The translations under genes and the position numbers were made by a program. Source: Selaginella tamariscina (lineage: Eukaryota > Streptophyta > Lycopodiopsida > Selaginellales > Selaginellaceae). From it: 64,000 bases of DNA. Below, in pieces: positions 2,761 to 39,769 of this stretch (position 1 is the stretch's first letter; the number at the start of each line of letters is the position of its first letter). The notes beneath the pieces were generated by a model, which was not told the DNA's origin, did not search any database, and was given only the letters and a program-made list of their open reading frames with translations. The stretch is taken from assembly GCA_003024785.1 (NCBI GenBank), contig PUQB01000720.1, forward strand, positions 48,790 to 112,789. Reading direction: 5' to 3'.

Positions 2761-2902
2761 ACAAGGTATACACGTGTGACCAACCAGGAATAGTGTGACA
2801 TCATCAATCTTCCACGTATACATTTTGTTGAGTATAAAAAGAAGCATAACATTATATGTGTATATAAAGGCATTTGAATTAATTGCTTAGTTTGTTTTGG
2901 AG
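2761..2902 (+). promoter_or_regulatory. Promoter and 5-prime UTR of secreted-protein copy 1
   Basis: A palindromic G-box CACGTG lies at 2771-2776, followed by TGACATCATCA near 2796 (a bZIP/as-1-like site), CCACGTAT near 2813 and a TATAAAAA box at 2833, about 70 bp before the ATG. The same boxes are present in all four gene copies. That these plant bZIP-type sites are used here is inferred from sequence only. Confidence 0.5.
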
Positions 2903-3278
2903 ATGGCAATAATTTCTACACGCAATGCATTTCTGTTACTCACTTTGGTTGCATGCTTGAGTTTTGTTACTCAAGCAGCTTACGATCCTGAACTTAGTGA
3001 CACAGAGGAGCACTTTAATGGTAAATAATAATAACTATTACATTTACAATCATAAAGATAATTAATTCAATAAAATTAACCTACAAGTTCATATTGATGT
3101 AATATGTTTATTCTTTTTATGTTATTTAGTTTGAGCTGTCTTTGTACATATACTTTACCATTATTATCATTTGAACACATATAGATAATGAAATATTAAC
3201 TACTTGGTTAATAACTCATAAACCAATTAATATGTCAGGGAATATAACTTATCTTTTAAAATCACATTTTTGTTAAAA

Positions 3279-3313
<35 letters not shown>

Positions 3314-3916
3314 GAAGAAAAAAGTTACTTTATAAATTTTAAATAATATTTCTCTTTCCTTCATTAACACAAGTTAATCATGCTTTTTGAAAGGTGCAAT
3401 GAGGAAGCTAAAAGCAGATCCAACGTCCGATATTTTGGGAGGTTTGGGAATCAATGCAACTATTGCTGTGGATTTAGCAGTTAAACTCCAGCTTATCATC
3501 AAAAACTTAACAACTCTCTGCGGGGTTTATCCGCTGTTAGCGACGCTCCTGAGCGGCATAGTTGTCGTACTTCAGATCATCCTCGACATCTTAACTGGTC
3601 AAATAACCTGCATATCCGTCTTAACCAGCATTAAGATCCTACTTAGCCTCAATATTAAGCTAATTCTGGATATTGGCCTCCTTAACCACTTGCTTGGTAA
3701 GTGAGTGTACTGTGTGTGTGTGTGCGTTTGTATTTACATTGTGTATTACATACAGCGGCGATAATTAAGCTCAAGGTTTCCGATCTCAATCTGCTTCTGA
3801 GCGTTTATGCTACACTGAATGGGATTCTCCTTAGCCTTCCGGTGAACTCTCTTATTTATGCGCTCCTCAAGCTCGTGGTTGTCATCCTCAAGAATGTCAT
3901 TTACATCTGTACTTAA
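2903..3916 (+). CDS. Small secreted Leu/Ile-rich protein, copy 1 (3 exons)
   Basis: Exons are 2903-3020, 3394-3696 and 3756-3916, with GT-AG introns of 373 and 59 bp. They join in frame to give about 193 residues. The protein starts MAIISTRNAFLLLTLVACLS, a clear signal peptide probably cut after FVTQA. A short acidic stretch follows, then about 150 residues very rich in Leu, Ile and Val with scattered Lys, Asn and Ser, suggesting amphipathic helices. Mature cysteines occur in the contexts TLCGV, ITCIS and YICT. There are two N-glycosylation sequons, NAT and NLT. No family is recognised; the composition recalls surface-active or lipid-binding secreted proteins, but that is only a resemblance. 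The small second intron carries a TG microsatellite just after its donor. The start is fixed by the signal peptide and TATA spacing. An AATAAA poly(A) signal is at 3935-3940. Confidence 0.8.
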
Positions 3917-3934
3917 CAAGCATTAGTACAATGC

Positions 3935-3940
3935 AATAAA
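3935..3940 (+). terminator. Poly(A) signal AATAAA of copy 1
   Basis: The hexamer lies 19 bp after the stop codon, in GCAATAAAACAG, and is conserved in the other copies at the same distance. Confidence 0.5.
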
Positions 3941-4352
3941 ACAGTTAGGTTGTTCTTCCTTGGGAAGTATGTAATATGAAAGCTGAATAAAATTGCATGC
4001 ACACTGACATGCAATTCTTATAATTATTTATAATTGGGTAATTGTAATAACTGCGAAGAGGATCCAGTGGTGGCTGTAATCGTTATTGTATACGCATAAA
4101 ACATGTATCTGGTTTAGTAAAACACCAACATTTGTAAAATATATAGAATTCGTATGTAAAAAATCAAAATCAACTCAATACGGATCATATTTACTTCATC
4201 GTGAATTATACAAAATAACATTTCAATATGAATAATGTCCTGAATGTGACAATTGCATCTCAAAGTGTAATTTTGTAATTATTATACTTTAACTTTAAAA
4301 AAGTTTGAAATGATTGTAAGTAAAACTTATGGAATGTTTATGTATTATAAAT

Positions 4353-4704
4353 GTGGAACTTCAACGGCCTTCTTCAAGGGCTGGCCACATCGAGTGAACA
4401 CCATTTGACTGTGGCGGTAATGTTCATCAAATGCTCAGGTCTGATATATGATATGACTCCCATGATATGTGCAATTTTCAACTAGTACAACCAGTATCCG
4501 TCGTATATGTTAATGCCACATTGGATCTCAACCATCCTCCGATTGCGGTGAACAGTTTATAGGTTAAATCGGTGATCATAGTTCGATATACAAAGTCAGT
4601 GTTTAAGCTCCAGAACTATTGTAGTGCCTGAAAAGGAAGACACAATCAAGTTGTGCAAAATCAGCTTTCAAGTCTATTAAGGTTGAGTATGCTTTCGTGT
4701 TTTG
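4353..4704 (+). pseudogene. Coding relic downstream of copy 1 (more decayed version)
   Basis: This aligns with the better-preserved relic at 48246-48618. Blocks that still read as protein include a GGNVHQML-like piece and NATLDLNHPPIAVNS. It has extra stops and a deletion of about 14 bp relative to copies 2 and 3. No family is recognised. It lies on the same strand as, and about 440 bp after, the secreted-protein gene. Confidence 0.4.
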
Positions 4705-4740
4705 ACTTGGAAGGATCATAAGCATGTGGTCAGTAGCCCA

Positions 4741-5540
4741 ATTGCAGTCAAGTCGATAGTTGAGATACCTGGGAATATATATATATATATATATATAGAA
4801 TATTGACTTTAACTAAAATTTTATAATTTATGTTTATAAATTAAATATTTAATATATACAAAAATTATTGATATAATTAATACATACATATACTTTTTTA
4901 TAATATATAACACATTATACATTGACTTATATATTGATAAAGGTTATGTATTAATATTATTTTATTTTTATTTCTCTTATGTAATTTCTCTTATGTTTTA
5001 TGATAAATGGTATATAAAGAAACTATACACCACACACGAAGACAGTTGCACACAGCTCTTATACACAATGTATAATATACATTACTTTTGATATGTATTT
5101 CATTTATACATGCATTGTATTTTAAACATATAAGTATATACATGAATCTTAATTTAATTGTCCTACACTTTTACGTAGGTGTTATATAGTACTACAACAT
5201 GCTCACATAGATATATATATACACACATATATAAACACAAGTGAACATAGTGCACGCATGTAAACATAGATATATTCTCTTGTATAGCAAATACAGTTAT
5301 ATAATACACATATAGAACAATGTACATTGTCTTTTATAACAGAATGTATTCTTGACTTTAAACTCAAAAATCCTAATTAATAAAAAAAATTATTAACCAC
5401 AATTAAATGAAAATTTTAAATAGTTAATTCTTAATTCAATTAACCATTGTAATGTAAATCATAATGTAATTATTATTAATAATGTGGCATATTTTAAATT
5501 TATAAGGGGTTAAATAACCACCACTAATGAAATGAAATAA
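4741..5540. other. AT-rich insertion specific to copies 1 and 4
   Basis: This is very AT-rich, with a TA-dinucleotide run at 4777-4796 and many ATATA/TATAC tracts. It is absent at the corresponding place after copies 2 and 3, where about 60 bp of different sequence joins the flanks. No ORF of interest is present. It is shared with 53020-53800 (inverted), next to copy 4. Confidence 0.6.
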
Positions 5541-5611
5541 CAGGTCCAAATGGAATGTGAGAATAAACATAATAATAACTTGTAACTTTATGTATATATG
5601 TATGTAGTGAA

Positions 5612-5702
5612 TCAGACAAGATGTGGTATGGATTTGTCTGCAATCGCCAACACTCTAATATGGACGCTAAAAGATTGCCAAAGTGAAATCAAGTTTGATG
5701 GT
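5612..5702 (+). pseudogene. Possible orphan exon
   Basis: After a TGTAG acceptor, this reads NQTRCGMDLSAIANTLIWTL and on to KFDG, and ends at a GTAAGAAG donor. The equivalents next to copies 2 and 3 are partly rearranged. It may belong to the same dead gene as the upstream relic. Only splice-like borders and an open frame support it. Confidence 0.3.
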
Positions 5703-5911
5703 AAGAAGTCAGTGGAATTTTTTTTTTTTTTAAAAAAAACAACATTACCAACAGGAATACCATCACTTCACTTATTTTACAACCAACCCAAATTTTTGTC
5801 AAAAAGAAGAGTTAACCAAGGGTTCTACAGTGCTTCCTAACTACCACTGCTCATCCAAACTTCCCCTGTGAGAGTGGAATACCATCACTTTAAGAGTACC
5901 TTATACGGGGC

Positions 5912-8900
5912 TTTCACCAAGGCCTTGAGATCCAAGAGCTCTTGAGTAGGATGAGGTTGAACTACCATGGGAAGGCCTAGCATGGATTGAGGTAGTGGAG
6001 TTTCTATCCACCCGGAACTCGAGCAACTCAAAGTTTAAACGCCGAGTTTTGGGTCTATAGGTTGGACACGTATTGCCTTTCTAGCATCTTCTGACTACCT
6101 AACGGATGGGTACTTGGTTAACCGGGTGCTGGAGATAGCCCGAGGTCATTGGTACCAAGTCCTTCGTAGATCTAAACATTCAGAGGAAAAAGCTTTAGAT
6201 TTGCTAGGTCTCCTTACATACCTCTTCTTGAACAAAGGAGTTTGCCCGTCGTGAATGCCTTCCAATGCACACAATGACTGGAACTCTAGTCAACTAGGTG
6301 GAGTATTTCTCAACAGGAGCATACTTCAAGCCTGATGGGGCAATGATTGAGTGACGATAGCTCCCTTAATCTAGATGTTGATTAATGCAATCCAATGTAG
6401 GCAACCACACGATGGGCCACAAATAGCGTCCCTAGCTTAGATGGAGTCGACTCCCTAGAGATACAAAATGAGTAAAGGAGAAGATCAGACTAGAGGAAGC
6501 ACCAAAGGAAGACCTTGCCCCTGCAATAGAGAAGATGGATCTGACAAGAGGAACCAATGGCACCCGTTGCAACTACATCATGCGAGCCATAGGAAGTTCA
6601 ACTGTAGGTAACGAAACCTCTATCGAGGTAACGAAAACCTCTATCGACTATGTTATAGTTCTTACGCAGTGCCATGTTTAATGTTGCCATATAAGCACCT
6701 CTGCAAGAAATATGCTGCCCAACTCACTTTTTTACTAAAGCTCATGTTAGAAACTGAACAAGGAACATGACTCAATATTTTGGGGCCATTTACTGAGGGT
6801 AGTTACTTTTAAGGAACTTAGGGCGGAACCCTAACTCTATTGCCTACAGTTTTGGCATTGTCTTATTAACACATGGTGATAACACCTAATGGCCACTTGG
6901 CATCATCCCTTGGGTCAAAAATCTAATAAATAGTACTATGTTGCATTTATTATTTAAGTTAGTGACCATGTTTGATTTTTCAACACTAGTATTTATATAA
7001 AAATTTATTACCAATATGCTTTATCATCCATAAATAAACAATGTTACTTTGTGCCTTTATCCACTTCAAAGAAGTTAATGCTACCAATCCAAAGGATGGA
7101 TTGACTGCTAAGTCACTATTCATCAATCAATAGTCATTGGTTTGATTGAGGTGGACATCTTGTCAACTCTTGTTCAGGAGGTGTTGGGGGAGTTCAAGAA
7201 TGTCTTTTCCTTTCATTTACCTATAGGAGTGTCACTTTTGTGGAGTGGATCATAAGATTGAGTTTTGAGCATGGTGCTAAGTCGATTTCAAGGAGTCTAT
7301 ATTGTTTGAGCTTCTTGAAGAAGCTGGAGGTGAAGAAGCAATTGGAATAGTTATTGACACAAGGGTTTATTCACATATCAAGTCACTTTATGGAGCTCTA
7401 GTGCTCCTTGTGCGGAAAAAGGATGGATCGATGAGGATGTGTATCAATTACGTGCCTTAAACAAGGTGATTGTGAAAAATAAGTTTCTTATGCCAAGAGT
7501 TAATGATTTTTTGATTGACTTGCAAGAGCAAGGTAGTTTATCAAAATTGACTTATAAAGTTGGTACATTAGATTTATTATGAGAGAGTAGGACGTTGCTA
7601 AGACAACATTTAGAACCTGGCATGGTCATTTTGAATTTCTTGTTATGCCATTTGACATAACGAACGCCTCTGTGACGTTCATGTAGTTAATGAATTCCAT
7701 TTTTTTCGATTATATCGATCGTTTTGTTGAAGTCTTCTTATATAATATTCTCATTATAGCAGAACTTTAGATGCGCATGGGGAGCATTTATGTCTAGTGC
7801 TACACTCTTGTTTTAAGGACGATGTTGCTCATGATCCTAAGAAGGTAGATGTAATGAGGCATTAGCATGTGCCTAAGATGACGGAGCTTGTTACAGTAGT
7901 CATGCAGGAGATGCATGATAGTCCATTTGCTAGACATGAATGAGAGGACAAGACGTATGATTTGGTGAAATGTCAATTCTTCTACCTAACATGAATCGCA
8001 CTTGTGCTAAGTGCCAGTTGGTTAAGGCTGAGAGAGTGGCTCACTAATGCCTTTGGAAGTGCCTCAAGGAAGATCTCTATGGATTTTATTACACATCTTA
8101 TAAGAACACTGCGTTGCAATGAACATGTGTGGGTCATTATGGATCGCTTGAGCAAATATGTTAAGTTGATTCCTTTGAGGAAGAATGTAACATCGAAGGA
8201 GCTCACATTGGTATATCTAATGCAGTGTATCATGAGTATGGAATGCCAGAGAACATTGTTATGACCGAGACAGTAAGTTTACTTTAGCATTTTGAATGAA
8301 GTTCTGTAGAAACTCGGCACTAAGATGAACTTTAGTAGTGGAGATCACCTGCAATCAGATGGCCAGATTGAGCGTGTGAACCAAGTTCTAAAGGATATGT
8401 TGAGAACTTGTGTGGCTGAGAAGCAAGGACAATGGGACAAGTTCTTGCCTTTGGTTGAGTTTGCCTATAACAACAGTAAGCATAGCTCTTCATTATATAC
8501 TTACAAAGGCAGACATCCTCGTCTCCAGCAGATGTTAAAATATGCTAGGAAGTGGTGAGAAAGGATGTCGAAGCTCATAGCTTGATGGATGATGGGATAC
8601 TTATAATGTGTTGGAAGAATTTGCTTAAGGCAAGGGACCAAGCTAAAAGCTAGCTGATGAGAAGCGCACTTATAAGGTAGTTCAATATAAGAGACAAAGT
8701 GTTTGTGCAAGTCATCTTTGCTTCCTATTAAAGTGTAATTCTTTACAACCTTTGAGACTAGATGTGTGAGAAGCTAAGTCCTTCATATGCTGGTCCATAT
8801 AAAATCCTTGAGAAGATCAATGCTGTAGCTTACAAGTTGAGTTGCCTGAGGGAGTGCAACTACATCCTTTGTTTCATGTGAGTCAATAAAGAGGGCCCTT

Positions 8901-9380
8901 GTACGTGGAAAATACTTGAAGAGTCAGAGGAGTTTGACCAAAAAATGTTTGAAATAACTTGTTCTAAAGAAAAAATCGTTGACATAAATCTTTGCAAAGT
9001 CAATTGGCCTTTGAAGGCAAGGACTTCTTCTAGGGGGTAAATGTTACAACCGAATGTTGGTCCATGGTCTTGGTCAAATGTTGACTATGATTGATCTCAT
9101 AGTTAAGTTAATCACATGGCTAATTAAGTAGATCCTAATTCTAATTGGGGAGATCCTAATTTTGAAGAGCAACAAAGAGTGTAATAATTTTTGAAAATGG
9201 AGTTCAACTTGCTAGAGCTTGGGGTAAACTAGAGTGCTTTAATTGGGGTAACTAGAGTGCTTTAAGGTTGGGCGGTGAGTTAGATAGTGTTTGAGAGTGG
9301 AGTTCAACCTGCTACAACTTGGGGGTGGGTGAGTTAAGCAACATTCAGGTAGTGCTGTAGGAGTGTAACACCATATAAAG
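5912..9380 (+). mobile_element. Decayed Ty3/gypsy element D (copy 1) at the palindrome centre
   Basis: Recognisable pol pieces lie in order on the plus strand: reverse transcriptase near 7330-7870, integrase core near 7980-8560 and integrase C-terminal region near 8600-8960. A purine-rich tract, TCTAGGGGGTAAA, precedes TGTTACAACC at 9042, which looks like the start of the 3-prime LTR. Bases 5912-7130 hold no reading frame I can assign and may be retroelement leader or unrelated insertion. The mirror copy is at about 49140-52670 on the minus strand. Confidence 0.75.
7139..8990 (+). pseudogene. Pol relic of element D
   Basis: Fragments in different frames show the RT fingers ([13 protein letters not shown]), a degraded palm (a YDDIL-type motif worn to YNIL), and the integrase core (KISMDFITHLIRTL, VIMDRLSKYVKLIPL). 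Further pieces are SDGQIERVNQVLKDMLRTCV, PLVEFAYNNSKHSS and a C-terminal block reading SYAGPYKILEKINAVAYKL. Many stops and indels make it non-functional. The copy at 49530-51362 is better preserved. Confidence 0.75.
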
Positions 9381-9790
9381 TACTCTTAAAGTGTGGTATT
9401 CCACTGTCACGGAGAGAGGTGGTGGACAGCAGGCTAATCAACAGTGAAGAGGAAGCACTGTAGAACCCTTGGTTAACTTTCTCTTCGAGGAAAATTTGGC
9501 TTGGTTGTAAAACCTTCTGTTGGTAATGAAAGTGCCCCAGTTAAAAAAAAAGAATTAGAAGAAAAAGCAAAAGTGATGGTGTTCCTCCTAGTTTTAAAAA
9601 TAAAAAAAAACAAAACTTGATTTCTATTTTGCCGATCTTTAACGTCGCATATTAGAGTGTTGGCGATTGCAGATTACATGGGCCGATCTTGTCTATTCCA
9701 TGTGAATTTATCCACTCTTGATTCTATAATAAATCCATAACACATCTCGTCTGATTCACTACATAATACATATATACAAATTATTAACAT
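9380..9790. repeat. Inner end of palindrome 1, right arm
   Basis: Inverted match to about 5598-5912: GTACTCTTAAAG, the AAGCACTGTAGAACCCTTGG block, the TTGGCGATTGCAGA block and TCTGATTCACTACAT all reappear as reverse complements. No gene is visible. Confidence 0.7.
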
Positions 9791-9896
9791 TAACATTTGG
9801 ACCTGTTAGCATTTATAAGACTCGAACATAAATGATACCATATCTATAAGCAACACAAAGTATGACATATGACCACATGCCTATGATCCTTCCAAG

Positions 9897-10268
9897 TCAA
9901 AGACCCAAAAGCATACTCAACCTTAATAGACTTGAAAGCTGATTTTGCACGACTTGGTCTGTGTCTTCTTTTCAGGCACTACAGTAGCACTCGCGCCTTC
10001 TGGAGCTTAAACACTGACTTTGTATATCGACCTATGGTCACCAACGATTTTAACCTTCCTATAAACTGTTCACCGCAATCGGAGGATGGTTGAGATCCCA
10101 TGTGGCATTAACATGTACGACGGATACTGGTTGTACTAGTTGAAAAATGCACATATCATGGAAGTCATATCATATACCAGACATGAGCATTTGATGAACA
10201 TTACCACCACAGTCAAATGGTGTTCCCTCGATGTGGCCAGCCCTTGAAGGAGGCCATTGAAATTCTAC
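9897..10268 (-). pseudogene. Coding relic downstream of copy 2
   Basis: The sequence is essentially the same as the relic at 48246-48618, read on the minus strand. The frame shows FDCGGNVHQMLMSG, then VVHVNATWDLNHPPIAVNS, then, after a one-base shift, KIVGDHRSIYKVSV. After a stop, it shows VVPEKEDTDQVVQNQLSSLL. Family unknown. Confidence 0.45.
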
Positions 10269-10658
10269 ATTTATAATACATAAACATTCCATTTCAAACT
10301 TTTTTAAGGTTAAAGTATAATAATTACAAAATTACACTTTGTTCATATTGGATAATGTTATTTTGTATAATTCACGATGAAGTAAATATGATCCGTATTG
10401 AGTTGATTTTGATTTTTTACATACGAATTCTATATATTTTACAAATGTTGGTGTTTTACTAAACCAGATACATGTTTTATGCGTATACAATAACGATTAC
10501 AGCCACCACTGGATCCTCTTCGCAGTTATTACAATTACCCAATTATAAATAATTATAAGAATTACATGTCAGTGTGCATGCAATTTTATTCAGCTTTCAT
10601 ATTACATACTTCCAAGGAAGAACAACCTAACTGTTTTATTGCATTGTACTAATGCTTG

Positions 10659-11267
10659 TTAAGTACAGATGTAAATGACATTCTTGAGGATGACAACCAC
10701 GAGCTTGAGGAGCGCATAAATAAGAGAGTTCACCGGAAGGCTAAGGAGAATCCCATTCAGTGTAGCATAAACGCTCAGAAGCAGATTGAGATCGGAAACC
10801 TTGAGCTTAATTATCGCCGCTGTATGTAATACACAATGTAAATACAAACGCACACACACACACACAGTACACTCACTTACCAAGCAAGTGGTTAAGGAGG
10901 CCAATATCCAGAATTAGCTTAATATTGAGGCTAAGTAGGATCTTAATGCTGGTTAAGACGGATATGCAGGTTATTTGACCAGTTAAGATGTCGAGGATGA
11001 TCTGAAGTACGACAACTATGCCGCTCAGGAGCGTCGCTAACAGCGGATAAACCCCGCAGAGAGTTGTTAAGTTTTTGATGATAAGCTGGAGTTTAACTGC
11101 TAAATCCACAGCAATAGTTGCATTGATTCCCAAACCTCCCAAAATATCGGACGTTGGATCTGCTTTTAGCTTCCTCATTGCACCTTTCAAAAAGCATGAT
11201 TAACTTGTGTTAATGAAGGAAAGAGAAATATTATTTAAAATTTATAAAGTAACTTTTTTCTTCTGAA

Positions 11268-11298
<31 letters not shown>

Positions 11299-11673
11299 AT
11301 TTTAACAAAAATGTGATTTTAAAACGATAAGTTATATTCCCTGACATATTAATTGGTTTATGAGTTATTAACCAAGTAGTTAATATTTCATTATCTATAT
11401 GTGTTCAAATGATAATAATGTTAAAGTATATGTACAAAGACAGCTCAAACTAAATAACATAAAAAGAATAAACATATTACATCAATATGAACTTGTAGGT
11501 TAATTTTATTGAATTAATTATCTTTATGTAAATGTAATAGTTATTATTATTTTACCATTAAAGTGCTCCTCTGTGTCACTAAGTTCAGGATCGTAAGCTG
11601 CTTGAGTAACAAAACTCAAGCATGCAACCAAAGTGAGTAACAGAAATGCATTGCGTGTAGAAATTATTGCCAT
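10659..11673 (-). CDS. Small secreted Leu/Ile-rich protein, copy 2 (3 exons)
   Basis: Exons on the minus strand are 11673-11556, 11183-10881 and 10819-10659. All junctions are GT-AG, and the phases match copy 1. The predicted protein matches copies 1 and 3, with the same signal peptide, two sequons and three mature cysteines. The gene is convergent with copy 1 across element D. Its promoter is cut by the MULE: the G-box and TATA box remain, but everything further upstream now lies 8 kb away at 19873 and beyond. Whether it is still expressed cannot be seen. Confidence 0.8.
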
Positions 11674-11848
11674 CTCCAAAACAAACTAAGCAATTAATTC
11701 AAATGCCTTTATATATACACATATAATGTTATGCTTCTTTTTATACTCAACAAAATGTATACGTGGAAGATTGATGATGTCACACTATTCCTGGTTGGTC
11801 ACACGTGTATACCTTGTCAGACTACTTTAGAAAATATGGCCGTCTCTA
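11674..11848 (-). promoter_or_regulatory. Proximal promoter of copy 2, truncated by the MULE
   Basis: The G-box is at 11802-11807 and the TATA box at about 11738-11745, as in the other copies. Homology to the other promoters breaks at 11857, the MULE insertion point, and resumes at 19864. Confidence 0.55.
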
Positions 11849-11857
11849 CAAAATTAT
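11849..11857. repeat. Target-site duplication, left (CAAAATTAT)
   Basis: The same nine bases follow the right end of the MULE at 19864-19872. The equivalent sites at copies 1, 3 and 4 carry one copy only (ACAAAATTATATATTAATTG on the matching strand). Confidence 0.9.
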
Positions 11858-12070
11858 GAGTCCCGACAAAAAAGAGGGCTTCCGGGCTTCCGGGCTTGGA
11901 CCCGGAATATTCTAAAGAATCTACCAGAATATTCTTAGAATATTCCTAAATATTCTTAGAATTTAGGATTTGGCTCAGTCGGCAATTAACAACAAAAAAT
12001 ATTTAATCATAGCCATGTTTATATTGTATTATTAATGTTTTATTTCAACACCAAAGAGTACAATTCAACA
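11858..12070. repeat. Left terminal and subterminal region of the MULE
   Basis: Degenerate terminal repeat with two GGGCTTCC units, then a cluster of GAATATTC/AGAATATTC/TAAATATTC palindromes (11915-11962), then a lone half-site CAGTCGGCA at 11976-11984 identical to half of the central array palindrome. The remainder to 12070 is AT-rich and lies after the stop of the minus-strand gene. Confidence 0.6.
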
Positions 12071-12074
12071 CTTG

Positions 12075-15000
12075 TCACTTCTTCTTACGATTGAGCAATG
12101 CTGCAATTCGTGAACCACCAGTCCTACTTGACGTCGCTATTGGTTGGGTTGGGATTTCCTCTGGCTGGATGTTCTCTTTAATCCTATTCATAGCAATTCT
12201 CCCGAGCTCAGGGTTCTTCTCAGTCCCAACAATGTTCTCCCCAGCTCGATAGCTGCAAGCATTGAGGACCCCGTACCACTGCCTATATCCCAGATAAGAT
12301 CACCTGGCCGGGTGAGTCGTTCTATCACGAGCTGCATCAATCGAGTGCTCTTCGGTTGGTAGTCCATCCTGCATGTGAAGATAATGGTAAATACTTAATT
12401 TGTTAAAATGAAATGCCTACCATGCTTCTTGGAACCGCTCAGGATTATCAACAAGAATTGTTGATGACAAACGCAGTGGATTATCGCGCAATCCTCTAGA
12501 TGCATCTTGGAAGACAAGAAGGAGCAGGATGCTCTCCTGTTAAAACATCAAAATCATTAATGAACTTCATGAATAAAGAAAAAAGTACCTTCATCTTATT
12601 GCGGTAGCCCCAACCACGCCCTCTGTAGATGTAGTACGTTGCAGCAAGTTGAAGGTCCACCACACTTGCAGCTCGAACAACTTGATCCCAGGTGTTTGCT
12701 GCAGCAAACACAACCAACCAAACCATTTGCAGCCATATGCATACCTGCAAACTGGAGTGCTTCCATCGAACTTCACTGGATCAAGTAGAGGTATGGCGTA
12801 TCACTCGTTGTATTCCTGGCAAGGTCCCATTTGGAAGGTCGAAGATCACCAAGTTGAAACCATATTCTCCCGCAATATGCTGGTAGCGAGTCTGGCTGTC
12901 AGCTGTATGGTACCTGGCCACCTGTGTCTGAACTTTTCTATAAGGAACCAGTCTAGCGTCAGGAACCTCCTCTTCCTTCTCATCCGTGAGCACGGCCTGT
13001 TGCATCTCCTCGATGTCATCAATCGCCAAGAAATTATCACCTCGAGTTGTAGCAAGTGAAGGGACGAATGTGACCAAGTCATCCTTGATGTCCATGGTTC
13101 CCTGCGATGGTAGCACTTCAGATAAATTGAAGAAGGCAGCTGGATCGCGAGTAGTGGAGGTGCCAGCTACTGTATCTGAGGTCTTCTTTGACTGCTGCAC
13201 AGGCTGACGCCGCTTTGCCTTGGCCTTTGTCTTCTTAATGAAGTCGACCTCTGCCGGATCCCATGAGATGCATGGGAGATCTTTTGAGTGTTCATTGTAG
13301 AGATCCTTCTCCCATGTTGGTGGTTGCCCAGGTGGATAATCAAGCCAGAACGGTACGTGTACACGCTCGAACTCTGTCAGGCCAGATCTTGTCTTCGACC
13401 ACATGTGTGGTGCTTCCATGTAATCTGACCAGAATACCATAGTCTGTGTGTGAGGCACCTTTCTCGCTGCGACATACCTGTAATGAACATATAGTAGTGT
13501 CAGAATGTAACAATGTCAAGAAGATCATCCTTACCTCCAAATCATCCTTCTTGCTGTCTCTTCGTGTTCGAGGAACTCTTTCGGCTCTATGGAGTAAGTG
13601 AACTTCACACACTCATGGAATGGCTGGAACATCACGTTCTTGCATTTTACCCGCACTTCATCGCACCAAGTCGTGAAATCTGTAACCGGCCTGCTCCACT
13701 CGCCATCCTCGATGAGTCCCGTGAGAATCTGTACTGCCTCCTCTCTGATTGCCCGCCAATACAAATCGATAGTAAACCACCTTATCCACTCCTTATCCTG
13801 AACACCCGGCAATCCAAGTGTCTCTTGCTCTCTCTTCAGATCGAGACGTACCAGTTTATTGAAGTACATGATTCTCGTCTCGTTTGGAATTCTCGCCCTT
13901 GAAAGCGCGTACAGCTTTTCCAACCCCATCCATCTGCATTGTTTCCATGTGATTTGGGTCACCTTGTCGAACCACTCTTCACCCAATGCAGGATCGATGA
14001 TGGCTAAGATCTTCATCATGCGCTTGTCATGCTTAATGTAGACCTGTTGTTGCTCCTGGTATTTGTTGCCTTTGGATGCCCTTGCAGCCTTCTCAAGATC
14101 ATCCTCAATCTCACTCTGTAATTCACAGACGTAATCAACTAAGTGATATAAGTGTGAGACGTGGTACCTCAAAAAAGATCTTTGCACAGATCAAATTCGG
14201 AAGTGGATGCCAAGCTTGTTGTCCAGTCGCGCTTTCCTTCCACTTTCTTATGTCATCTCGTTCCTTGTCACTGAGCCTGGCCAAGATCTTCGCTGTGCCC
14301 TCCTCACTGGTGCAACATGTCTTCACAGATAGCAGAAGATGTGGCAGTGTGGTTTGCACTGCCGTTGCGGAGGAACTGCATATTTGAAAAGCTCGAAGTT
14401 AGTTAATCCTATGATCTAGAGGTCACTGTTTACCTATTAATTTGCTGAAACATTGTCACAAGCTGAAGATTATCCATGACCCCAGCACGGATGAAGCCTG
14501 AACGCACTCTCACTGCCCACTGAATCTTATCTTCCGTGTCTTCTGTGTACAGCTTCTGAAGCACCTTTAGCCTGTGATTACCATCCCAACAGATGAACTT
14601 CTTCATCGAAAGCATTGGTGCCCATTGCCGGAACATGTCGGACTGAAGCTCCTCCTCAAAAGCCAAATGCTGAGCATACATCGCTTCATCGCTTCTCAAT
14701 GCTGCCAGATCTGCATCTGTCATGGGGTCCCCAACTTGAAGGATGAACTGAGTGGTGTTGCGCAAATAACCAACTGCCTTCTTGAAACTCCTAGTCAAAG
14801 ATTCCAGATCCGCTGGATTGACTCTCCGCACCTGCTCATTTCCCAGAATTCGGCAAATAGGGACATCCGGTGCCTCTCCATATTCTCGGATTGTGATCTT
14901 CGCGAGAAGACGCACTGCACTCTCCGAATGCATGCTGGCTGCAATGTTGTAAACTTCCTCATTATCTGGCACTTCTGCTTTCCCCTTCTTCTTCTTCTTA

Positions 15001-15392
15001 GCAGCCTCTGAATCTCCAGCAGCTTTGCGTCGTCTCTTCTTGCTCTTGGGTTCATCCTCTTCGTCACTCGACAAAGTCACTGCGCATGAGGCTTGTGTGC
15101 CTTCTGTCTGCTCCTGTGTCTCCTGTGGTAAGACATCATCCTCAACTTCTTCAACAAAGTCTGATTGTTCTTGTTGGGGTTGAACTACATCCTCTTGCTC
15201 TCCTGACCAGTCCTGCTGGCTTGCCTGTTCAACTGGAGCATCACTTGAAGGTCCTTGTTCCTGAACCACAGCCAGCTTCCTACTTCCTCTCCCACGACCC
15301 CGACGCCCTCTCTGAATTGCAGCTCTAGCTTCTGCTTCTCTCTCAGTAGGCTCCTTCATCTTCTTTTCTTGTAAACGTTGTGAAGAGCGCAT
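12075..15392 (-). pseudogene. ParB-like domain / DNA amino-methyltransferase fusion gene, disrupted (6 exons)
   Basis: Exons on the minus strand: 15392-14434, 14375-14168, 14115-13535, 13477-12589, 12536-12421 and 12368-12075. All introns are GT-AG, 52-58 bp, and phases agree, giving about 1,015 residues. Residues 20-140 are charged, with a Lys/Arg-rich likely nuclear signal at 116-138. Residues about 175-335 read as a ParB/sulfiredoxin-like domain: VPICRILGNEQVRRVNPADL, then FICWDGNHRLKVLQKL with the DGNHR motif at 270-274. Residues 390-760 are unassigned. Near residue 796, NLVIFDLPNG fits methyltransferase motif IV but has DLPN instead of a (D/N/S)PP(Y/F/W) core. Near residue 945, PGDLIWDIGSGTGS fits SAM motif I. 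The IV-then-I order matches beta-class amino-methyltransferases. Breaks: an in-frame TGA at 12783-12781 and a one-base shift near 12210-12215, after which VGTEKNPELGRIAMNRIKEN resumes. Divergent from the transposase gene. Confidence 0.75.
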
Positions 15393-15477
15393 CTACAAAA
15401 GCAATAAGGTTTAACAAAAAACTGTAATAAATGTTCAAAGATGTTTAATAAAAATTAAAAAAACATACTAGCCCTCA

Positions 15478-16004
15478 CAGTCGGCGTGCCGACTGAGAGA
15501 GCAGTTGCTGTAAGTCCCAGTCGGCATGCCGACTGGGACTGGCATCAAAAGGCCCAGTCGGCATGCCGACTGGGCCTGGCATCAAAGGGAGTCCCAGTCG
15601 GCATGCCGACTGGGACTGGCATCAAAGGGAGTCCCAGTCGGCATGCCGACTGGGCTGGCAACAAAGGGAGTCCCAGTCGGCATGCCGACTGGGACTGGCA
15701 TCAAAGGGAGTCCCAGTCGGCATGCCGACTGGGACTGGCAACAAAGGGAGTCCCAGTCGGCATGCCGACTGGGCTGGCAACAAAGGGAGGCCCAGTCGGC
15801 ATGCCGACTGGGACTGGGAACGAAACAAGGCCCAGTCAAAATGCTAGGTGGGACTAGAACAGTCAACCCTAGTCAAAATGCTGACTGGGGCTGGAACAGT
15901 CAACCCCGGTCAAAATGTTGACTGGATCTGGAACAGTCCACCCCAGTCGGCCTGCCGACTGGGACGGACAACGAAGTCAGTCCGAGTCGGCAGGCCGACT
16001 CGGA
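15478..16004. repeat. Array of 14 palindromic sites (parS/iteron-like)
   Basis: Each unit is an inverted repeat with half-site CCCAGTCGGCA followed directly by its reverse complement. Units start at 15478, 15516, 15553, 15593, 15633, 15672, 15712, 15752, 15791, 15831, 15868, 15905, 15942 and 15982, so the period is 37-40 bp. The eight from 15516 to 15791 are perfect 22-bp palindromes, some with symmetric flanks. Those from 15831 to 15905 have lost the central CGGC (TCAAAATG), and the last two keep symmetry with changed bases. Spacers are a conserved GGCA(T/A)CAAAGGGAGT in the central part. The array lies between the two divergent genes. Confidence 0.9.
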
Positions 16005-16260
16005 TTTCTTGCAACTGTGAAGAGATGTAAAAAGATGAACAGATCATGAAAAGATCATGAGCAGATCATGAAGAAATCAGAAAATACTCACCCCCTCAAT
16101 GGAAGCCTATTGTGATTAATCCCTGGAGCCACACTTGCTCCACGCTATGCCCCCAAATGCGCCGCTGCTCCACGAAAACCTAGCCGCCCTCGCTGCCCTA
16201 GCCGCCCTAATTGCAAAACCCTAGCCGCCCTAAATCAATTAAAAACCAACCTAATTTCTG
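16005..16260 (-). promoter_or_regulatory. Likely 5-prime leader and promoter of the ParB-methyltransferase gene
   Basis: On the minus strand, a GC-richer segment with repeated GGGCGGCTAGGG and AGGGTTTTGC (telo-box-like AAACCCTA on the plus strand) runs from about 16250. It meets a possible donor, GTGAGTATTT, near 16090. A pyrimidine-containing acceptor, CTCTTCACAG, lies near 16015. A further donor, GTATGTTTTT, lies just below the array (about 15470) and an acceptor, TTTTGTAG, directly precedes the ATG at 15392. If used, these make the palindromic array part of a spliced, untranslated leader. Confidence 0.35.
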
Positions 16261-16497
16261 TAAACATATTGCATGCATGATCGCCACTTGTACATAGTAA
16301 AACTTTTTAATTTACAAAAAACCTACCCAGACGCAGTAAATTAATTTCACTCTTCTACCCAGACGCACGCAATTAATATTATTTTTAATATTTGTCAATG
16401 AAATGATTGCCTCACGACTGACAAACACATTAACCATCGTGTGTAATATGTTCATTGTCTTTGAATTTTAACTTTTGTTTGTTCCATTTTTGCTACA
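16261..16497 (+). promoter_or_regulatory. Non-coding region upstream of the transposase
   Basis: AT-rich interval between the leader of the minus gene and the transposase ATG. It includes a duplicated CTACCCAGACGCA motif (about 16323 and 16357). No clear TATA box position can be defended. Confidence 0.3.
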
Positions 16498-19400
16498 TGG
16501 CAAGAATCAGCTACAATGGTGTTGACAAGGACTTCCCTGCAGATGAAGATGGTATTGCATTTGTCTTTGAAACAGATCTCAGGTCTGCATTTGACATTCC
16601 ACCTTGGCAATCTTTTAAAGTGCTGCATTTGATGTTGTTGGTGGAGATGCTGCGAATGTTGAGGTAGAACCAGAAGGGGCAAGAGCTAGCAGTTTTGTGT
16701 ATTACACACTTCTTCCTTCCAAAGGACCGCTATTCCGGTTGGAGACAACAGATCGGGACAATTCTATGGTAACAATACTTCGCAATAGTCAGAGATGTAG
16801 GATTGGGAAGCAACTGGTGGTCTCGTCATCGATTCAGCAAGTTGCTGAGGTCCCAGAAGATTGCAACGGAAATGTGATTTACGAGTTGCCAGCACACGAA
16901 ACAATGAAGGACAAGTACAAAGGGATGAATAGGAAGGATGGGTGTGATTACTGGACTCAACGCTGCACAACACATTGGAATGTTCCAGCTCGTGTTAGTC
17001 GCAGTTCATGTATTGGCCACATGAAATGCGTAAAGGAAACATGTCCGTTCATCAGCTTCAGTAAGAAAGCAAATGACTGCCAATTTAAGGGCACCATTGA
17101 TAAAGTCCAGTTATCTTCAGATGGTAGAGTGCTTGGAATGAAGTGTGTGCATTGCAACAATGAGCCCCTTCTAGTGCAGACATGCTCCGTTGTTGCATAT
17201 TACATAATTCCAGATGATATCACATGCACGAGGCTTTTCATCCATCTTGGAGAACATCAACACCCACGTAGACCACCCGAATCCATGGTCTCTAAAGACA
17301 GAGCTAAGGAGACAATCAACAAAGCAGTCGCTGCAACCCCAAGAACTAATCAACGTGTCATAGAGTTTCAAGCAGCACGCAATATAATTTTGGAAAAACT
17401 GGTAACAGATTCTGGAGATGTATCATACGACAAGGTTCTGTCAGATCTACTACCACTCACAAATCACCGCCGGTAAGCAAAAAAATTATTATTTCCTTTT
17501 GGAGATGCTTAACCTTTCCAATGTAGAACAAGAGAATGGATATCTCAGGCTAGAACAACAGACACTCGTTTCAAAGAAGGTTACGAAGGACTTCTGCAGT
17601 TAAAGAAGAAGCTATCAATCCCATTCATACATGTTATCCACATACCCGGAATGGACCTCAACGGAGCTGAAGAGCAGCCTTTAATCTTCAAAATGACAGT
17701 TGCCGGCCCAGGATCCGGAATAGACTACATTAGAAGGTGTCAATCTGGAGGTGATCTCGAACAGCAGTGGGTGGTGCTAGACCACACATATCGTATTGAT
17801 GATTGGTGTACACTGGGAATACATCTCTATGATCCATTGTAAGTATTAACATATCTATGTTTTAAAATACTTACTAATATAATGCACTTATGTTTGTGCA
17901 GTTTAAGGTCGATGGTGACACTTGCTTATGGTGACATGATCAGGGAGGATAGTGTGGCGGTGATCAAATTTTTGAACACTATGCTTCAAGTGTGCAGCAA
18001 GCAAGGACTTCATAATGTGAACTTTGCGGGGTTCATGTCAGATGAGTCAGGTGCAATTTGGTTAGCATTGCGTCAAGTTTTCAACAATGGGTCAAAGATG
18101 AGAGGAAGAGAAAGGAGTTGTTTGTTCCATTACATGCAGTCAGTGCGTCAAGTTACAAAGAAGTGGATACTTGAGGAACACAGGGAGGAGCACATGAACC
18201 TTGCACGCTCATGGCCTGCAGCACTAACCAACCAAGATAAGTTGGAACGACGAGTAATGTTGGAGTCATTTTGGGAAGGCAGGTCCAGTAACGTTAGCGC
18301 TTTGCAAACATGGCTGTCATGGTGGGCAAGACATGAAGATCATATTTCCATGACAGAGATAATTGACTTGACAGAAGATGGTGTTGCGAATGTGCCTACC
18401 ACTAACAACTCCGAAGTTGTTCATGCAAGAGCACGAAGAGCAAGGCTGACGAAGCGTGTTCCTTTGTTGGAGGCAACAATGTTAGATTTAACAGATGCTG
18501 TTTTCCAAAGTGCAAAGGTCAAGGCATCATTTGAAGGGAGATATTCAGGCACAGGTCCTTCCATGGAAACTCTTCTGAAACGTGCACAGCAGAAACTTTC
18601 AGCGGGAAAATCAGTGTCTCCAACAACTTTTGCAAATCTTGTTAGTGATGAAGAGCATCTTGCAAGTCCAGAGTTTGCCTCTACAACAAATGTTCGTGTT
18701 CGAACCGTTCGTCAACCGTCAACTGGGGACCATGGGATTGATGCACTTCGTACACATAGACATGACACACAATATGCAGAACAAGTCATCCCAAATGCAC
18801 GCAGGAAAAAACTCAAGTTTCAAGATGTCAATGTCACTGAAAGAGAGACGTTGATGACTCAGTGGGCCATCAGACGCATTGGGGAGGCAAGTCAGGTGAA
18901 ATGTCTAGGTCTCACTCAGGACGGTAACAGCAAGTGTGGCAGACCCATAGGATATCCACATCGTGTACCGGCACCAGGATTTCACGGTAGACGGCAATAT
19001 ACAAATGCATTTGGGAACATTGAGTTCACTCATCAGATGCTATGGTTCTGCCCACGCGATTCTTGTTGCTTCAGACGACCATATGCAGGGATTCCTCCTG
19101 AGAGTATTCCAGAAGTTCCAGAGGTTTGGCCAGTTCAAAAAGGAACAAACTTGAATGCAAATGAGGTTGAAGCTCTTCTGAAAGCAGGATTCAAGTTGGA
19201 GGGATTTGAAGAAATGGTAGACGACAGTAGTAGCCGAATGGATCGAACACCATCACCACCAAGAGGAGAGGGAGCACATAGAGTACCAACATACCATGGA
19301 CGGAGTGTGCGAACACCAACAAGAATGTCCAAGGAACATGAGAAACATTACAACCAGGCAAAGATTCTTCAAGGTCGGATCAACAACGTGGAGGTGGTTC

Positions 19401-19666
19401 AAAGAGGGAAGACTGAGGCCTTCATTGTCTCTGCAGGCATGCAATCTGCTAAGGTAACAATTTCTGCTGTTCCGTCATGCACTTGTGCAACTTTTCAGAA
19501 AGCCAAGAACTGGAGCCCCTGCCAACACATGTATTTTGTGTACACTCATGTTCTTGGATTAGACCCAACGATTACTTACTTCTTACAGAGGCGGACCCTT
19601 ACTCCAGCAGAAGTGCATCGGTTATTGGTTGGTTGCAAGCGCAATGTCGAACCTGCGACTTTTTAA
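16498..19666 (+). CDS. MULE transposase (DDE, GCM1/WRKY-like and SWIM zinc fingers; 3 exons)
   Basis: Exons are 16498-17472, 17527-17838 and 17902-19666, with GT-AG introns of 54 and 63 bp, giving about 1,017 residues. It begins MARISYNGVDKDFPADEDGI. A one-base shift near 16618 is needed to pass from PPWQSF to AFDVVGGDA. A Cys-rich region ends in CTRLFIHLGEHQHP, a GCM1/WRKY-type zinc ligand pattern expected to bind transposon DNA. The catalytic region shows VVLDHTYRID (first Asp, 17780), FMSDESGAIWLALRQVF (second Asp, 18041) followed by RSCLFHYMQSV (the C/H motif of MULEs), and TTNNSEVVH (likely Glu, 18413). Near the C-terminus, CTC...PCQH at 19478-19528 is a SWIM finger. It would act in the nucleus to cut and join the element ends. 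Fit to MULE is good; the exact subfamily is unknown. Confidence 0.85.
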
Positions 19667-19863
19667 GTTTAGTCGGTATAGTAAAGTCTAGTCGGCAAAT
19701 AATTAGCGTTTTTCACTTGTTGGTCGGCATTTTATAATGAAAGTTAAAGATAATCTACTTGGCAGAATATTCTAGAATATTCCCTTTTATTTGACAGAAT
19801 ATTCCTGGATATTCGGGAATATGCGAAAAGCCCGTTGTACGAAGCCCGGTTTTTGCAATCCTC
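19667..19863. repeat. Right terminal and subterminal region of the MULE
   Basis: Directly after the transposase stop lie AGTCGGTA (19671), AGTCGGCA (19690-19697) and GGTCGGCAT (19722-19730), variants of the array half-site. A cluster of AGAATATTC/GGAATATGC palindromes follows (19763-19823), then GAAGCCCGG and the end, CAATCCTC. Only the outermost bases and the GGGCTTC block mirror the left end. Confidence 0.6.
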
Positions 19864-19872
19864 CAAAATTAT
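19864..19872. repeat. Target-site duplication, right (CAAAATTAT)
   Basis: Identical to 11849-11857; see the left copy. Confidence 0.9.
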
Positions 19873-22045: not shown

Positions 22046-22815
22046 ATGGCTGATTTTGAACAATTTCAATGTGAGCACCAAATGTTGCTTCATGAGCTGG
22101 CCACTTTGCACCAAGTGGTCATAGATCTGCAAGGTTCCACCAATGCGGCGCATGTAGCTGCTGATGCATCCTCCAAAGCTGCTGCACAAGCTCTCTCTCA
22201 AGCATCCATAGTTTCCTCTTCATCGAACACTTCTTCGGAGTCGAAGATCAGCATGCCGGAAAAGTTCGGTGGCAATTGCGCCGATTTCCAAGGGTTCCTG
22301 AATCAAATCAGCCTTTTAATCCGCATACAACCACGCCGCTACTCAACTGATGCACAAAAAGGTGGCCTTTTGACATCCTTACTAGTTGGATATCCACGGC
22401 TTGGGTTGCCCTTTACTGGAGCGTGACGACCCATTGATGGAGGACTTTGAAGGATTTGTGGGTGCCTTTGAAGCCTAATTTGGAATCCCGACAAGTACCG
22501 TTCCGCATGCACGAAGTTACGCAAGCTCACACAAGAATCCCGACCAACTTCTGTCTATGCATCCGAATTTCATCAACTTTGCACGAACATTCCATGGGAC
22601 GAGACTGCATTGATCGAACATTTCCGTTTTGGGTTGAGGATGACATGAAGACCTTTTCCTTATGTTACCGGATGCCCAAACACTAGCGGAGATCATGCAA
22701 CAAGCCATTCATTGCGACAACCGTTTGTTTAAGCATCGTCAGGAAAAATCTCGTCAGCAATTCCTACAAGCCAATCCTGTAGCTGTGGTACATGTTCCAA
22801 CGTAGTTCCTATGGA
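22046..22815 (+). pseudogene. Gag of element A
   Basis: Starts MADFEQFQCEHQMLLHELAT. Residues 1-60 look like a coiled, Ala/Gln-rich N-terminal region, followed by SKISMPEKFGGNCADFQGFL, which starts the Gag core seen in chromoviruses. Frameshifts near 22415 and 22480 break the core. Gag would package element RNA. Confidence 0.7.
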
Positions 22816-22817
22816 GG

Positions 22818-25800
22818 TTGAGAAATACAAACGTGGCTCACTTTCCGCTGTTGAGAAGTAACGTTGCGCATGAGAACCTATGCTTGTATTGTGGTGAAGA
22901 AGGACATAAGGTGGCGGAATGTCCTATTAAAGCCAGGAAGTTCAATACGCATGAAGTTGAAGCTGAAGTTCAATGTCCACTTCGTCTAGGAGCCGAGAAG
23001 TTGGACGTAGGTGCAGGCTCTATTGGTGCTGCTCATACCATTCCATCACTCAAATTTCTTGTACACATTCATCTCAATAATCGAGAGCTCAAGGAGTTTG
23101 CCCTGTTAGACACTAGTGCAAATGCATGTTTCATGGATGACACTTTTGCAACTCAGCATGGCATTCAGGTTATAAAGTTGAAGCGTGTAGTTCTTGTAGA
23201 GGTGGCCGATGGTCGTCTGATTGCTTCTGGCGCGGTTACCCATGCTACCACACCTCTCTCTTGTAGTCATGGTGCATTCAACTATTCAATTTCCTTCGAG
23301 TTGATCAAGACTCGGTTGACTCCCATCGTTTTGGGCATGCCATGGTTCGTGGTTGCAAATCCTTACATTGATTGGAGGTCTAGGACGCTCACATTTTCCT
23401 CTCCGGCATCCAGGATCAATTTTGTACCTTCCTGCGTGCAAGATACATCTTTAGTGTCTGAGGCAATACAAGCTATAGGATTGACCGTGCCTGTTACTGT
23501 ATCAGTGTTGAAGACTCCTCCTCGACAGGATTCACCTCATGTCAGTTCCTCAACACATCCGCAGGCTCTCTCCACTCCTGTAAGTTTGCGGATTCCTGTA
23601 CAGGGTTCTTTCAATCCTGTATCAGTGTCGAAGGTTCTTCCTCAACAGGATCCACCTCATGTTGGTTCATCAGCACACTTGCAGGCTCTCCTCACTCCTG
23701 TGCATCCACATACTTCTGTACATGATTATTCCAATCCTGTACACTTGTCAACATCTGCACAGGTTTTCCCCAATCCTACCTCTTTTCATTACTCACTTCT
23801 GTTCCAACCCCCAAGATCCTTCCTCTTTTTCAGTCACAGCTCCCTCCTTCTCCTCTCCGAGTTCTTACCACTACTATGTATGAACTTGCCACTGATCCAG
23901 CTCCCTTTCATCTTTTTGCTTTCTAAGGAACCCTTACATCCTCTTCTACCTTTCCTGTATCTGACTCTCTTGTTTTTCAATCTCCTTCTCCTTCTCCTTC
24001 TTCTCCTGCTCCTGCTCCTTCTCTTTCTCTTACTTCTTCCTTGCCATCCAAGTATCATTCCTTTCAGGACGTTTTTGACAAGCACAAGGCTGCAGTTCTT
24101 CCTGTTCACAGGTCCTACGACTGTTTTATCGATCTTGCGGAAGGGAAGACTCCACCGTTCGGACCAATTTATGCACTGTCACCTACAGAATTGGAAGTTC
24201 TTTGCCAATACATCAAGGACAACTTGGCATTCGACTTCATTCATCACTCAAAGTCCCTTGCAGGAGCACCTATCTTCTTTGTCAAGAAGAAAGATGGGAG
24301 TTTGCGCTTGGTTGTGGATTACAGGGTTTGAATCAAGTCACCATCCGGAACTGATACCCATTACCATTGATCCCGAACTTCTCGATCGGCTACGAGGAGC
24401 AAAGGTGTTCACAAAGATCGACTTACAAGGGCCTACAATCTTGTACGGATTTGTCTAGGCGATGAGTGGAAGACTGCTTTTCATACAAGGTATGGACATT
24501 TTGAGTACAATGATGCCTTTCGGACTTATCAATGCCCCAGCCATGTTCCAACACACGGTAAACGACATCTTTCATGACTTCTTGGACCAGTTTGTGGTGA
24601 TCTACCTCGATGACATTTTAATTTTCTCTAAGGACCAGGCGGTACATGACAAGCATGTATGATTAGTTTTACAGAGGCTTCACGAGCATGGCCTGTATGC
24701 GAAGTATTTTTTCGACAGGGATATTGTGGAGTTCTTGGGCTACATCGTCTCTCCTGCTGGCATTTCCATGGACATGCACAAGGTGAAGACTATTGTGGAG
24801 TGGGAGAGGCCCAAGTCTGTACGAGACGTACAATGTTTCCTTGGCTTTACAAACTTTTACAGGCGTTTCATACATGACTTCTCCAAGCGTGTACTTCCAC
24901 TCACGGAACTCACCAAGCGCATAGGAGATTTCTCTTGGTCCGACAAGGTGGAACATGCATTCAAGGCACTCAAGGACGCCTTCATGACAGCTCCAATTTT
25001 AGCACATCCTAATCCTTCTCGTCCTTCTTCGTTGAAGCAAAATGCCTCAGATTTTTGCAGTAGGTTCTATCCTATCAAAGTTGGGAAGACAAGTTACTTC
25101 ATCCTGTAGCCTTTCACTCTTGTAAGTTCCTTTCGGCGAAGATCAATTACAAGATTCATGATAAGGAACTTAAGGCCATTGTGGATTCATTTGAGGAGTG
25201 GCGGCACTTCCTGTACAAGTTCTTACGGATCATAAGAACCTGGAGTTTTTTTAAACGGCTCGAGTTCTCAATCGGCGACAGGCTAGGTGGGCAGAATTCC
25301 TATCACATTTTGATTTTATCATCGTCTATAGGCTTGGTTTTCGGAATGGCAAAGCGGACACATTGTCTAGGCACTCCTATCTTGCACCGACCCCAGGCGA
25401 TCCTGCATATGACTGTCAAAAGCAAGTGTTGTTGGGTCCTGATCGTTTTCAACTTGCGGCACTACAGGTTCATCAGGCTTCAGCAAATTCAACACTTCTA
25501 TAAGACATCCGTTTGTAGTTGGCTACAGACGACTTAGCAAAGAATGTGTTCTCGCACATTAGTCCTGACATTGCAAGCTCCTCTTCCTCCAGTTCCCGTT
25601 CATACTACAAGTTATTCGCCATACAGGACAGACTCCTGTACCGGGAAGGTCTTCTATACGTTTTGTTGGTGTTTGTAGGACTCGTGTGGTACAGGATTGT
25701 CATGATACCCCAGCTACAGGACATTTTGGTGTGGCCAAGACAGTTGAGTTAGTGACTCGCAACTATTGGTGGCCTGGGTTGCGAGGTTCTGTCGAAAGGT

Positions 25801-39449: not shown

Positions 39450-39769
39450 CTATTCCCCACCTTAAATATTTGTAATGTCCTCACTACAACTATCCTACTC
39501 CTTTATTATGCTGATCTTCATGGTACTTTAGACTTACTTCTTTATGCTTTTGAAAGTTGTTCCTCTCTTCCTTGAGTTCTTGGTTGGAAGTTGATACCTT
39601 GACTTGTAACACTTAATTTTCTTCATGATGTTCCTTAGGCTCACTATTTCCTTTCTCTTCCTGTTCCTAAATAATTTTTCCTTCCTGTTCCTGAATAGTT
39701 TTTCCTTCTTGTTTATTAAGCTCATCCTCTGTAAATAGAATAGGAAAACATCATTTTTCGTGGCATCAT

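Follow-up and report, generated by a model that had tools for sequence, protein, structure and literature searches.

In algal transposons, ParB and methyltransferase genes have been described together, with an accessory protein of 1,104 aa that was proposed to mark its own transposon (PMC12477816). Arabidopsis VANC proteins cause methylation loss (PMC5735166, PMC10398659), and VANC21 and VANC6 bind short motifs in tandem repeats of the non-coding parts of their own Mutator-like elements (MULEs) (PMC5735166). Fungal DNA transposons carry TET/JBP dioxygenases (PMC12730594). A survey of MULEs names the accessory genes or domains mutB, vanB, vanC, PMD, SET, and Ovarian Tumour Gene; the word "methyltransferase" is absent from its main text (PMC6446971). 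Here, we describe a MULE-type element in Selaginella tamariscina, found in a 64,000-nucleotide stretch of contig PUQB01000720.1 (assembly GCA_003024785.1, positions 48,790 to 112,789), called the window below. The element carries an accessory gene, the cargo, next to an array of palindromes built from the half-site AGTCGGCA. The explanation we prefer, tentatively, is that the cargo protein binds AGTCGGCA and serves the transposon as a self-marking, anti-silencing accessory.

The cargo resembles the algal accessory gene in lying on the opposite strand to the transposase, in coding for ~1,000 aa (1,104 in the alga, 1,015 here), and in combining a ParB-like part with an N4C/N6A-type methyltransferase part; the two are compared in architecture, and binding and marking of the own transposon was proposed for the algal protein (PMC12477816). 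The element differs from the algal system in being MULE-type with a 9-bp duplication rather than Sola, in a motif IV that reads DLPN, and in the plant-like mutation pattern of its host; it also has a motif array and end sites, which the algal passages do not mention (PMC12477816). With the VANDAL MULEs it shares an accessory gene and tandem short motifs of variable repeat number in non-coding parts, but its cargo matches PF01555, its motif is AGTCGGCA rather than YAGTATTAY, and the motif is kept between families (PMC5735166). The TET/JBP transposons also carry a DNA-modification enzyme as cargo, of another enzyme class and in another host (PMC12730594). No MULE or land-plant case with such a cargo, and no description of a target motif, was found in the literature covered, a scope that left most subscription papers outside. 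On these comparisons, the kind of cargo appears to be already known from algal transposons, while the MULE host and the target-motif array with end sites appear to be new.

Linkage of cargo, array, and transposase in a young family

The element occupies exactly the 8,006 bp (11858-19863) proposed in the initial annotation, with GAG...CTC ends and a perfect 9-bp target-site duplication, CAAAATTAT, on both sides. Its joined flanks match three empty sites within the same window at 98.8-99.3% identity, and the alignment to the one at 55643-56043 has a single CAAAATTAT. These empty sites show that the element inserted precisely, and probably not long ago. Inside it, the divergent six-exon gene that had been predicted, with GT-AG introns, lies on the minus strand, a three-exon transposase gene lies on the plus strand, and the array is located between them.

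A search of the 300.7-Mb genome with the array DNA gave at least 40 array loci, window included (best 40 of 217 candidates). When the 179-aa ParB-like domain of the cargo served as query, at least 151 matches were obtained (best 150 of 1,411 candidates); both counts are lower bounds. At least 51 domain matches among those listed, window included, are 100% identical in protein. A cargo-domain match was located within 4 kb of 38 of the 40 array loci, again among the matches listed. The two array loci for which no cargo match is listed (C929:157214 and C571:561220) might be non-autonomous copies.

Twenty copies besides the window copy were sampled, giving 21 rows with the window. Each of the 20 is complete or almost complete, with segments 96.9-99.6% identical, and contains cargo, array, and transposase. 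An exact 9-bp duplication, at different sites, was read by eye in 13 of the 20 (in L011, L012, L014, and L026 after a boundary shift) and one with a single mismatch in L010; it was absent or unreadable by eye in L009, L015, and L028. L017, L018, and L021 share a common site (~8 bp readable by eye) and are thus copies of one insertion. The contigs of these three differ by small indels, due to haplotypes, duplications, or assembly redundancy. This main family, family A, is young and high-copy, with recent transposition, and the linkage of cargo, array, and transposase is fixed in it. Hence the stable linkage looked for in other copies was found, both in the full-length copies and around the array loci. 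A one-off gene capture is ruled out by the linkage in all 20 copies.

A second family, family B, came to light in a search with PF01555 (739 candidates, best 150 scored, all 150 above the cut-off) and was sampled at five loci. Its cargo is 58% identical to that of family A in a pieced reading. Two of the five loci have cargo and transposase in divergent order with an array between them (L039 and L040, the latter with a partial transposase). L042 is rearranged and has an array, no transposase match or array was found at L041, and L043 is only partly covered.

The half-site in the array and at the ends

The regular array of long palindromes proposed between the two genes was recovered by Tandem Repeats Finder at 15513-15817 (period 40, 94% matches), with perfect-palindrome cores of 22-28 bp. 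In family A the unit is a palindrome of AGTCGGCA within a 39-40-bp repeat. The hexamer GTCGGC is found 16 times in the window and GCCGAC 11 times; out of these 27 occurrences, 11 + 11 lie within the array and 3 at the ends of the element; another 2 fall outside it, and the coding part has none. Judged from the 2 outside in ~56 kb, the ends, 413 bp in all, would be expected to hold ~0.015 half-sites, against 3 seen.

Divergence within the array was followed in 195 units with a 22-bp core from 19 rows, with 17 units of other lengths excluded. The core differs by 0.3% (56 units of 39 nt) or 2.7% (122 units of 40 nt), against 18-19% for the spacer; the units were picked by at most 4 core mismatches, which biases the core values downwards, yet this cut alone would permit far higher ones. 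Among the 195 units, 65 half-pairs are changed, 19 of them on both sides. The number of palindromes varies from 8 to 13 per copy, as could be expected of a neutral minisatellite expanded by slippage in a transposon that captured a gene. We regard this explanation as scarcely credible: it is disfavoured by the contrast between core and spacer and by the recurrence of the half-site in family B and at the ends.

In family B, the arrays have a period of 124-139 bp with half-sites arranged as TGCCGACTGA-N-TCAGTCGGCA; CTCAGTCGGCA, GGTCGGCA, and forms with one mismatch are present at its ends. At three of the four ends of the two families, half-sites stand 19 bp apart in direct order. This spacing, seen at both ends of L039 and at the right end of the window element (19671-19697), is close to two DNA turns. 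Among six non-coding compartments of families A and B, AGTCGGCA is the most widely common 8-mer (exact in five, with one mismatch in all six), and no 8-mer reached five of six in 200 first-order Markov resamplings. The half-site is therefore conserved in array and ends across the two families.

The unit and its arrangement were also compared with ParB-parS. A parS site is 16 bp long. The array unit has a 16-bp palindromic core and the cargo a DGNHR-type motif, as in ParB-parS; unlike that system, there is no PF02195 match, no ParA gene in the element, and three half-site arrangements, namely the convergent palindrome in the family A array, TGCCGACTGA-N-TCAGTCGGCA in that of family B, and direct order 19 bp apart at the ends. 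The earlier term parS-like fits the array only in part: its half-site is tied to an end motif, but the palindrome itself is not conserved, and the half-sites are rearranged in family B.

Two other binders of the half-site have to be considered. In one alternative, which we consider unlikely, AGTCGGCA would be bound by the transposase, at both ends as well as in the array; the latter would serve as an internal enhancer or sink regulating the divergent promoters or end pairing, and the cargo would be unrelated to the motif. The half-sites near the termini in both families, with direct 19-bp spacing at three of the four ends, are in agreement with this, as are the Cys-rich N-terminal region of the transposase and the linkage of transposase and motif in all 20 copies. 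However, most half-sites are internal, in the array, and AATATTCT is present in all four termini of families A and B and in neither intergenic region. Being restricted to the termini, AATATTCT offers a separate and more natural site for the transposase. In the other alternative, the array would be a promoter made of sites for host transcription factors that drive both genes. Its place between the divergent genes, ~85 bp from the cargo start codon, fits this role, but the end half-sites beyond both 3' ends would be left unexplained, and we find it very unlikely.

The cargo protein and the transposase

In the window copy, both frames are broken: that of the cargo stops at residue 814, with indels private to this copy, and that of the transposase at residue 56. 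Of the 21 copies, 4 have an uninterrupted cargo frame (L009, L015, L021, and L027; 1,011-1,015 aa) and 6 an uninterrupted transposase frame (L009, L012, L016, L021, L025, and L027, with an out-of-frame stretch near the C terminus in L021); both frames are unbroken in 3. Many copies have indels of their own, some in homopolymers, which may be assembly errors.

The methyltransferase motifs of the initial annotation were checked against profiles. PF01555 (N6_N4 DNA methyltransferase) matches residues 923-978 of an intact copy with 36.4 bits (E 7e-9, cut-off 26.7), covering only profile positions 165-220 of 221, the part with motif I (GSGTGSS). For the window copy, the spliced reading scored 23.0 bits, below the cut-off, and the last exon alone 27.1. 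No other Pfam match above cut-off was found in the cargo. Motif I follows motif IV in the protein, which is the order of beta-type enzymes, and its region is 65-78% identical between families A and B in open segments. Catalytic motif IV reads (D/N/S)PP(Y/F/W). The corresponding residues are FDLPNG for family A and LDLPNE for family B, hence DLPN and not DPPY; three phage relatives have DPPY, DIPY, and DPAY by eye. Since DLPN is found in both families, decay of a canonical DPPY in the window copy alone is ruled out. The profile match and motif I of the earlier claim are thus retained, with a non-canonical motif IV.

PDB sequence matches of the cargo include the adenine-specific methyltransferases MboIIA, DpnA, and CcrM, which take the top four places with the two-family profile. 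The matches also extend to ribosomal and arginine methyltransferases, so they reflect a general S-adenosylmethionine-binding motif. An active N6-adenine or N4-cytosine DNA methyltransferase, writing a mark against 5-methylcytosine silencing much as has been suggested for the algal proteins (PMC12477816), would agree with the PF01555 score, the three PDB enzymes, and the conserved motif I. It would have to work with DLPN in both families, and the evidence from Pfam is limited to the motif I part and that from PDB to general cofactor binding; we judge this alternative quite unlikely. DLPN is as good an argument for a reader or an altered enzyme as for an active enzyme, and methyltransferase activity is doubtful.

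A ParB-type DGNHR domain had also been claimed for the N-terminal part. The motif is there (CWDGNHRL), but PF02195, the ParB N-terminal family, gave no match in the cargo of the window or of an intact copy, in a search that was positive in 11 of 14 control genomes. With the ParB-like domain as query, a PDB sequence search gave chance-level matches to other proteins only, and tblastn a single chance-level match in phages and a single one in plasmids. An hhalign comparison with 10 plasmid ParBs scored 27.4 in local mode (E 8e-4 for one comparison, probability 24%, first box only) and 19.1 in global mode (E 1.1e-3, both ParB boxes in order); the local-mode maximum of 30 column shuffles was 17.5. 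The AlphaFold model of the ParB-like exon alone was not usable (predicted local distance difference test, pLDDT, 42). Kinship with ParB is thus weakly supported, and the domain is termed ParB-like here rather than ParB. No cargo relative was found in a 5.8-billion protein set with the 944-aa window reading, the 180-aa ParB-like domain, or a two-family alignment as query (the first and last of these searches scored the best 8,000 candidates by common words), nor in scans of viral contigs and prokaryote genomes; the source lineage of the cargo cannot therefore be named. The most likely reading of the protein, as part of the explanation that we tentatively prefer, is an accessory protein that targets chromatin or DNA and consists of a ParB-like domain, a family-specific middle region, and a beta-type DNA-methyltransferase fold.

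For the transposase, no transposase-core profile of Pfam matched. Its SWIM finger scored 19.8 bits on a 65-aa fragment (cut-off 19.6) and 14.5, below the cut-off, in the whole protein. A C-terminal SWIM finger is common in MULEs, though not universal. By eye, we take the D..D and C..H motifs to be DDE-like. The assignment to MULEs, which upholds the initial one apart from this missing core match, relies on the 9-bp duplication, the GAG...CTC ends, the SWIM finger, and these motifs.

Between families A and B, seven open cargo segments summed (leaving out an eighth, overlapping one) gave differences of 0.84 per silent site (pS, saturated) and 0.27 per replacement site (pN). The cargo protein has been kept under purifying selection while its silent sites became saturated. 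Within family A, 19 rows were compared (the window and 18 copies, L017 and L018 being dropped as they share the site of L021): 21 silent and 29 replacement changes were counted in the cargo (ratio 0.45, p=0.005), and 9 and 30 in the transposase (ratio 1.1, p=0.66). In the young family, the cargo thus appears more constrained than the transposase (0.45 vs 1.1, on few changes), the reverse of what is expected of passive cargo. The proposal that a prokaryotic-type module was domesticated as transposon cargo gains from the linkage, the purifying selection, and the end motif; it loses in that the ParB part is only ParB-like and motif IV is non-canonical.

Feature positions are listed in Table 1. 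The window is rich in long inverted duplications (~95-99% identical), with a giant palindrome centred at ~51 kb, real or an assembly artefact. Retrotransposon fragments with zinc-knuckle open frames are located at 22806-24458, 41359-41916, and 60282-61244, above the cut-off in the last two; the first has a weak aspartic-protease match as well.

Table 1. Features of the element and its surroundings, in window positions.
Feature	Position	Strand	Remark
Whole element, 8,006 bp	11858..19863	.	GAG...CTC; termini with weak inverted repeats only
Left 9-bp target-site duplication CAAAATTAT	11849..11857	.	supported by empty sites
Right 9-bp target-site duplication CAAAATTAT	19864..19872	.	supported by empty sites
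Left subterminal AGAATATTC repeats	11905..11962	.	termini only in both families
Right subterminal AGAATATTC repeats	19764..19822	.
Left-end half-site AGTCGGCA	11977..11984	+	in 20/20 other copies
Right-end half-site variant AGTCGGTA	19671..19678	+	19 bp before next; in 20/20 other copies
Right-end half-site AGTCGGCA	19690..19697	+	not found in 1/20 other copies (L020)
Right-end half-site variant GGTCGGCA	19722..19729	+	not found in 1/20 (L015); TGTCGGCA in L014
Array, 22-28-bp palindromes of AGTCGGCA every ~40 bp	15476..16004	.	between divergent genes; variant units at both edges
Degenerate 37-bp part of array	15831-15948	.
Cargo exon 1	14434..15392	-	basic/acidic N-terminal part and ParB-like domain, CWDGNHRL
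Cargo exon 2	14168..14375	-
Cargo exon 3	13535..14115	-	family-specific middle region
Cargo exon 4	12589..13477	-	motif IV FDLPNG; private indels 12815, 12786, 12764, 12722 (frameshifted)
Cargo exon 5	12421..12536	-
Cargo exon 6	12075..12368	-	methyltransferase motif I GSGTGSS; private indel 12237
Transposase exon 1	16497..17472	+	frameshifted near 16615 in window copy
Transposase exon 2	17527..17838	+	DHT motif
Transposase exon 3	17902..19666	+	SDES, C..H motifs, SWIM finger
Empty target sites	55643-56043 (+), 46443-46843 (-), 2520-2918 (-)		match to joined flanks
Inverted duplication pairs	38515-45536 / 56888-64000; 6334-11857 / 46644-52159; 1616-6419 / 52151-56953

Proposed self-recognition and silencing

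In the explanation that we prefer, the cargo would recognise AGTCGGCA, with about twenty half-sites in the array and a few at the ends, and would cover the two promoters and the two ends of each copy but hardly any other DNA. The two classes of motif would then serve two binders, the AATATTC repeats the transposase and AGTCGGCA the cargo. The pay-off would be that copies stay expressed and mobile through anti-silencing or self-marking like that of VANC, with a prokaryote-type protein. We infer both that the half-site is bound by the cargo rather than by the transposase and that this binding opposes silencing.

Several observations weigh against this explanation. In the cargo half, C-to-T changes per 1,000 sites number 52 at CG, 37 at CHG, and 15 at CHH, vs 7 for A/T transitions; the corresponding values of the transposase half are 30, 20, 12, and 4. 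An excess of C-to-T at CG and CHG is the usual trace of 5-methylcytosine. Many copies have thus probably been methylated, and any anti-silencing must be incomplete or past. ParB kinship received no support from the Pfam, NCBIfam, or PDB matches of the cargo, PF02195 included, and a strict ParB-parS mode is unlikely since the two families differ in array orientation. Conservation extends to the transposase, whose matching segments are 32-88% identical between families A and B. Sites at transposon ends often serve transposases, so this conserved protein could bind the half-site. The motif test used one copy per family (the window for A, L039 for B) and compartments that we drew ourselves, and with 7-mers 56 of the 200 resampled sets do as well. 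As to selection within family A, 45 of the 50 cargo changes are each confined to a single copy, and 33 of the 50 fall at residue 800 or later; with so few changes, some of them maybe noise from misalignment near indels, this constraint is suggestive.

It is possible, though we hold this with less confidence than the binding itself, that a MULE lineage evolved self-recognition from a ParB-like/methyltransferase protein, convergently with VANC, and that the fold is now a non-catalytic or altered reader whose half-site was kept beyond the saturation of silent sites. AGTCGGCA is a candidate target for the ParB/methyltransferase accessory proteins of transposons, for which the literature passages name none. 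If this is true, proteins that use tandem motifs to recognise the non-coding DNA of their own element have arisen repeatedly, in transposons otherwise unlike one another. With at least 150 recognisable copies, some intact genes, and a predicted site, this young family would make self-marking against silencing testable.

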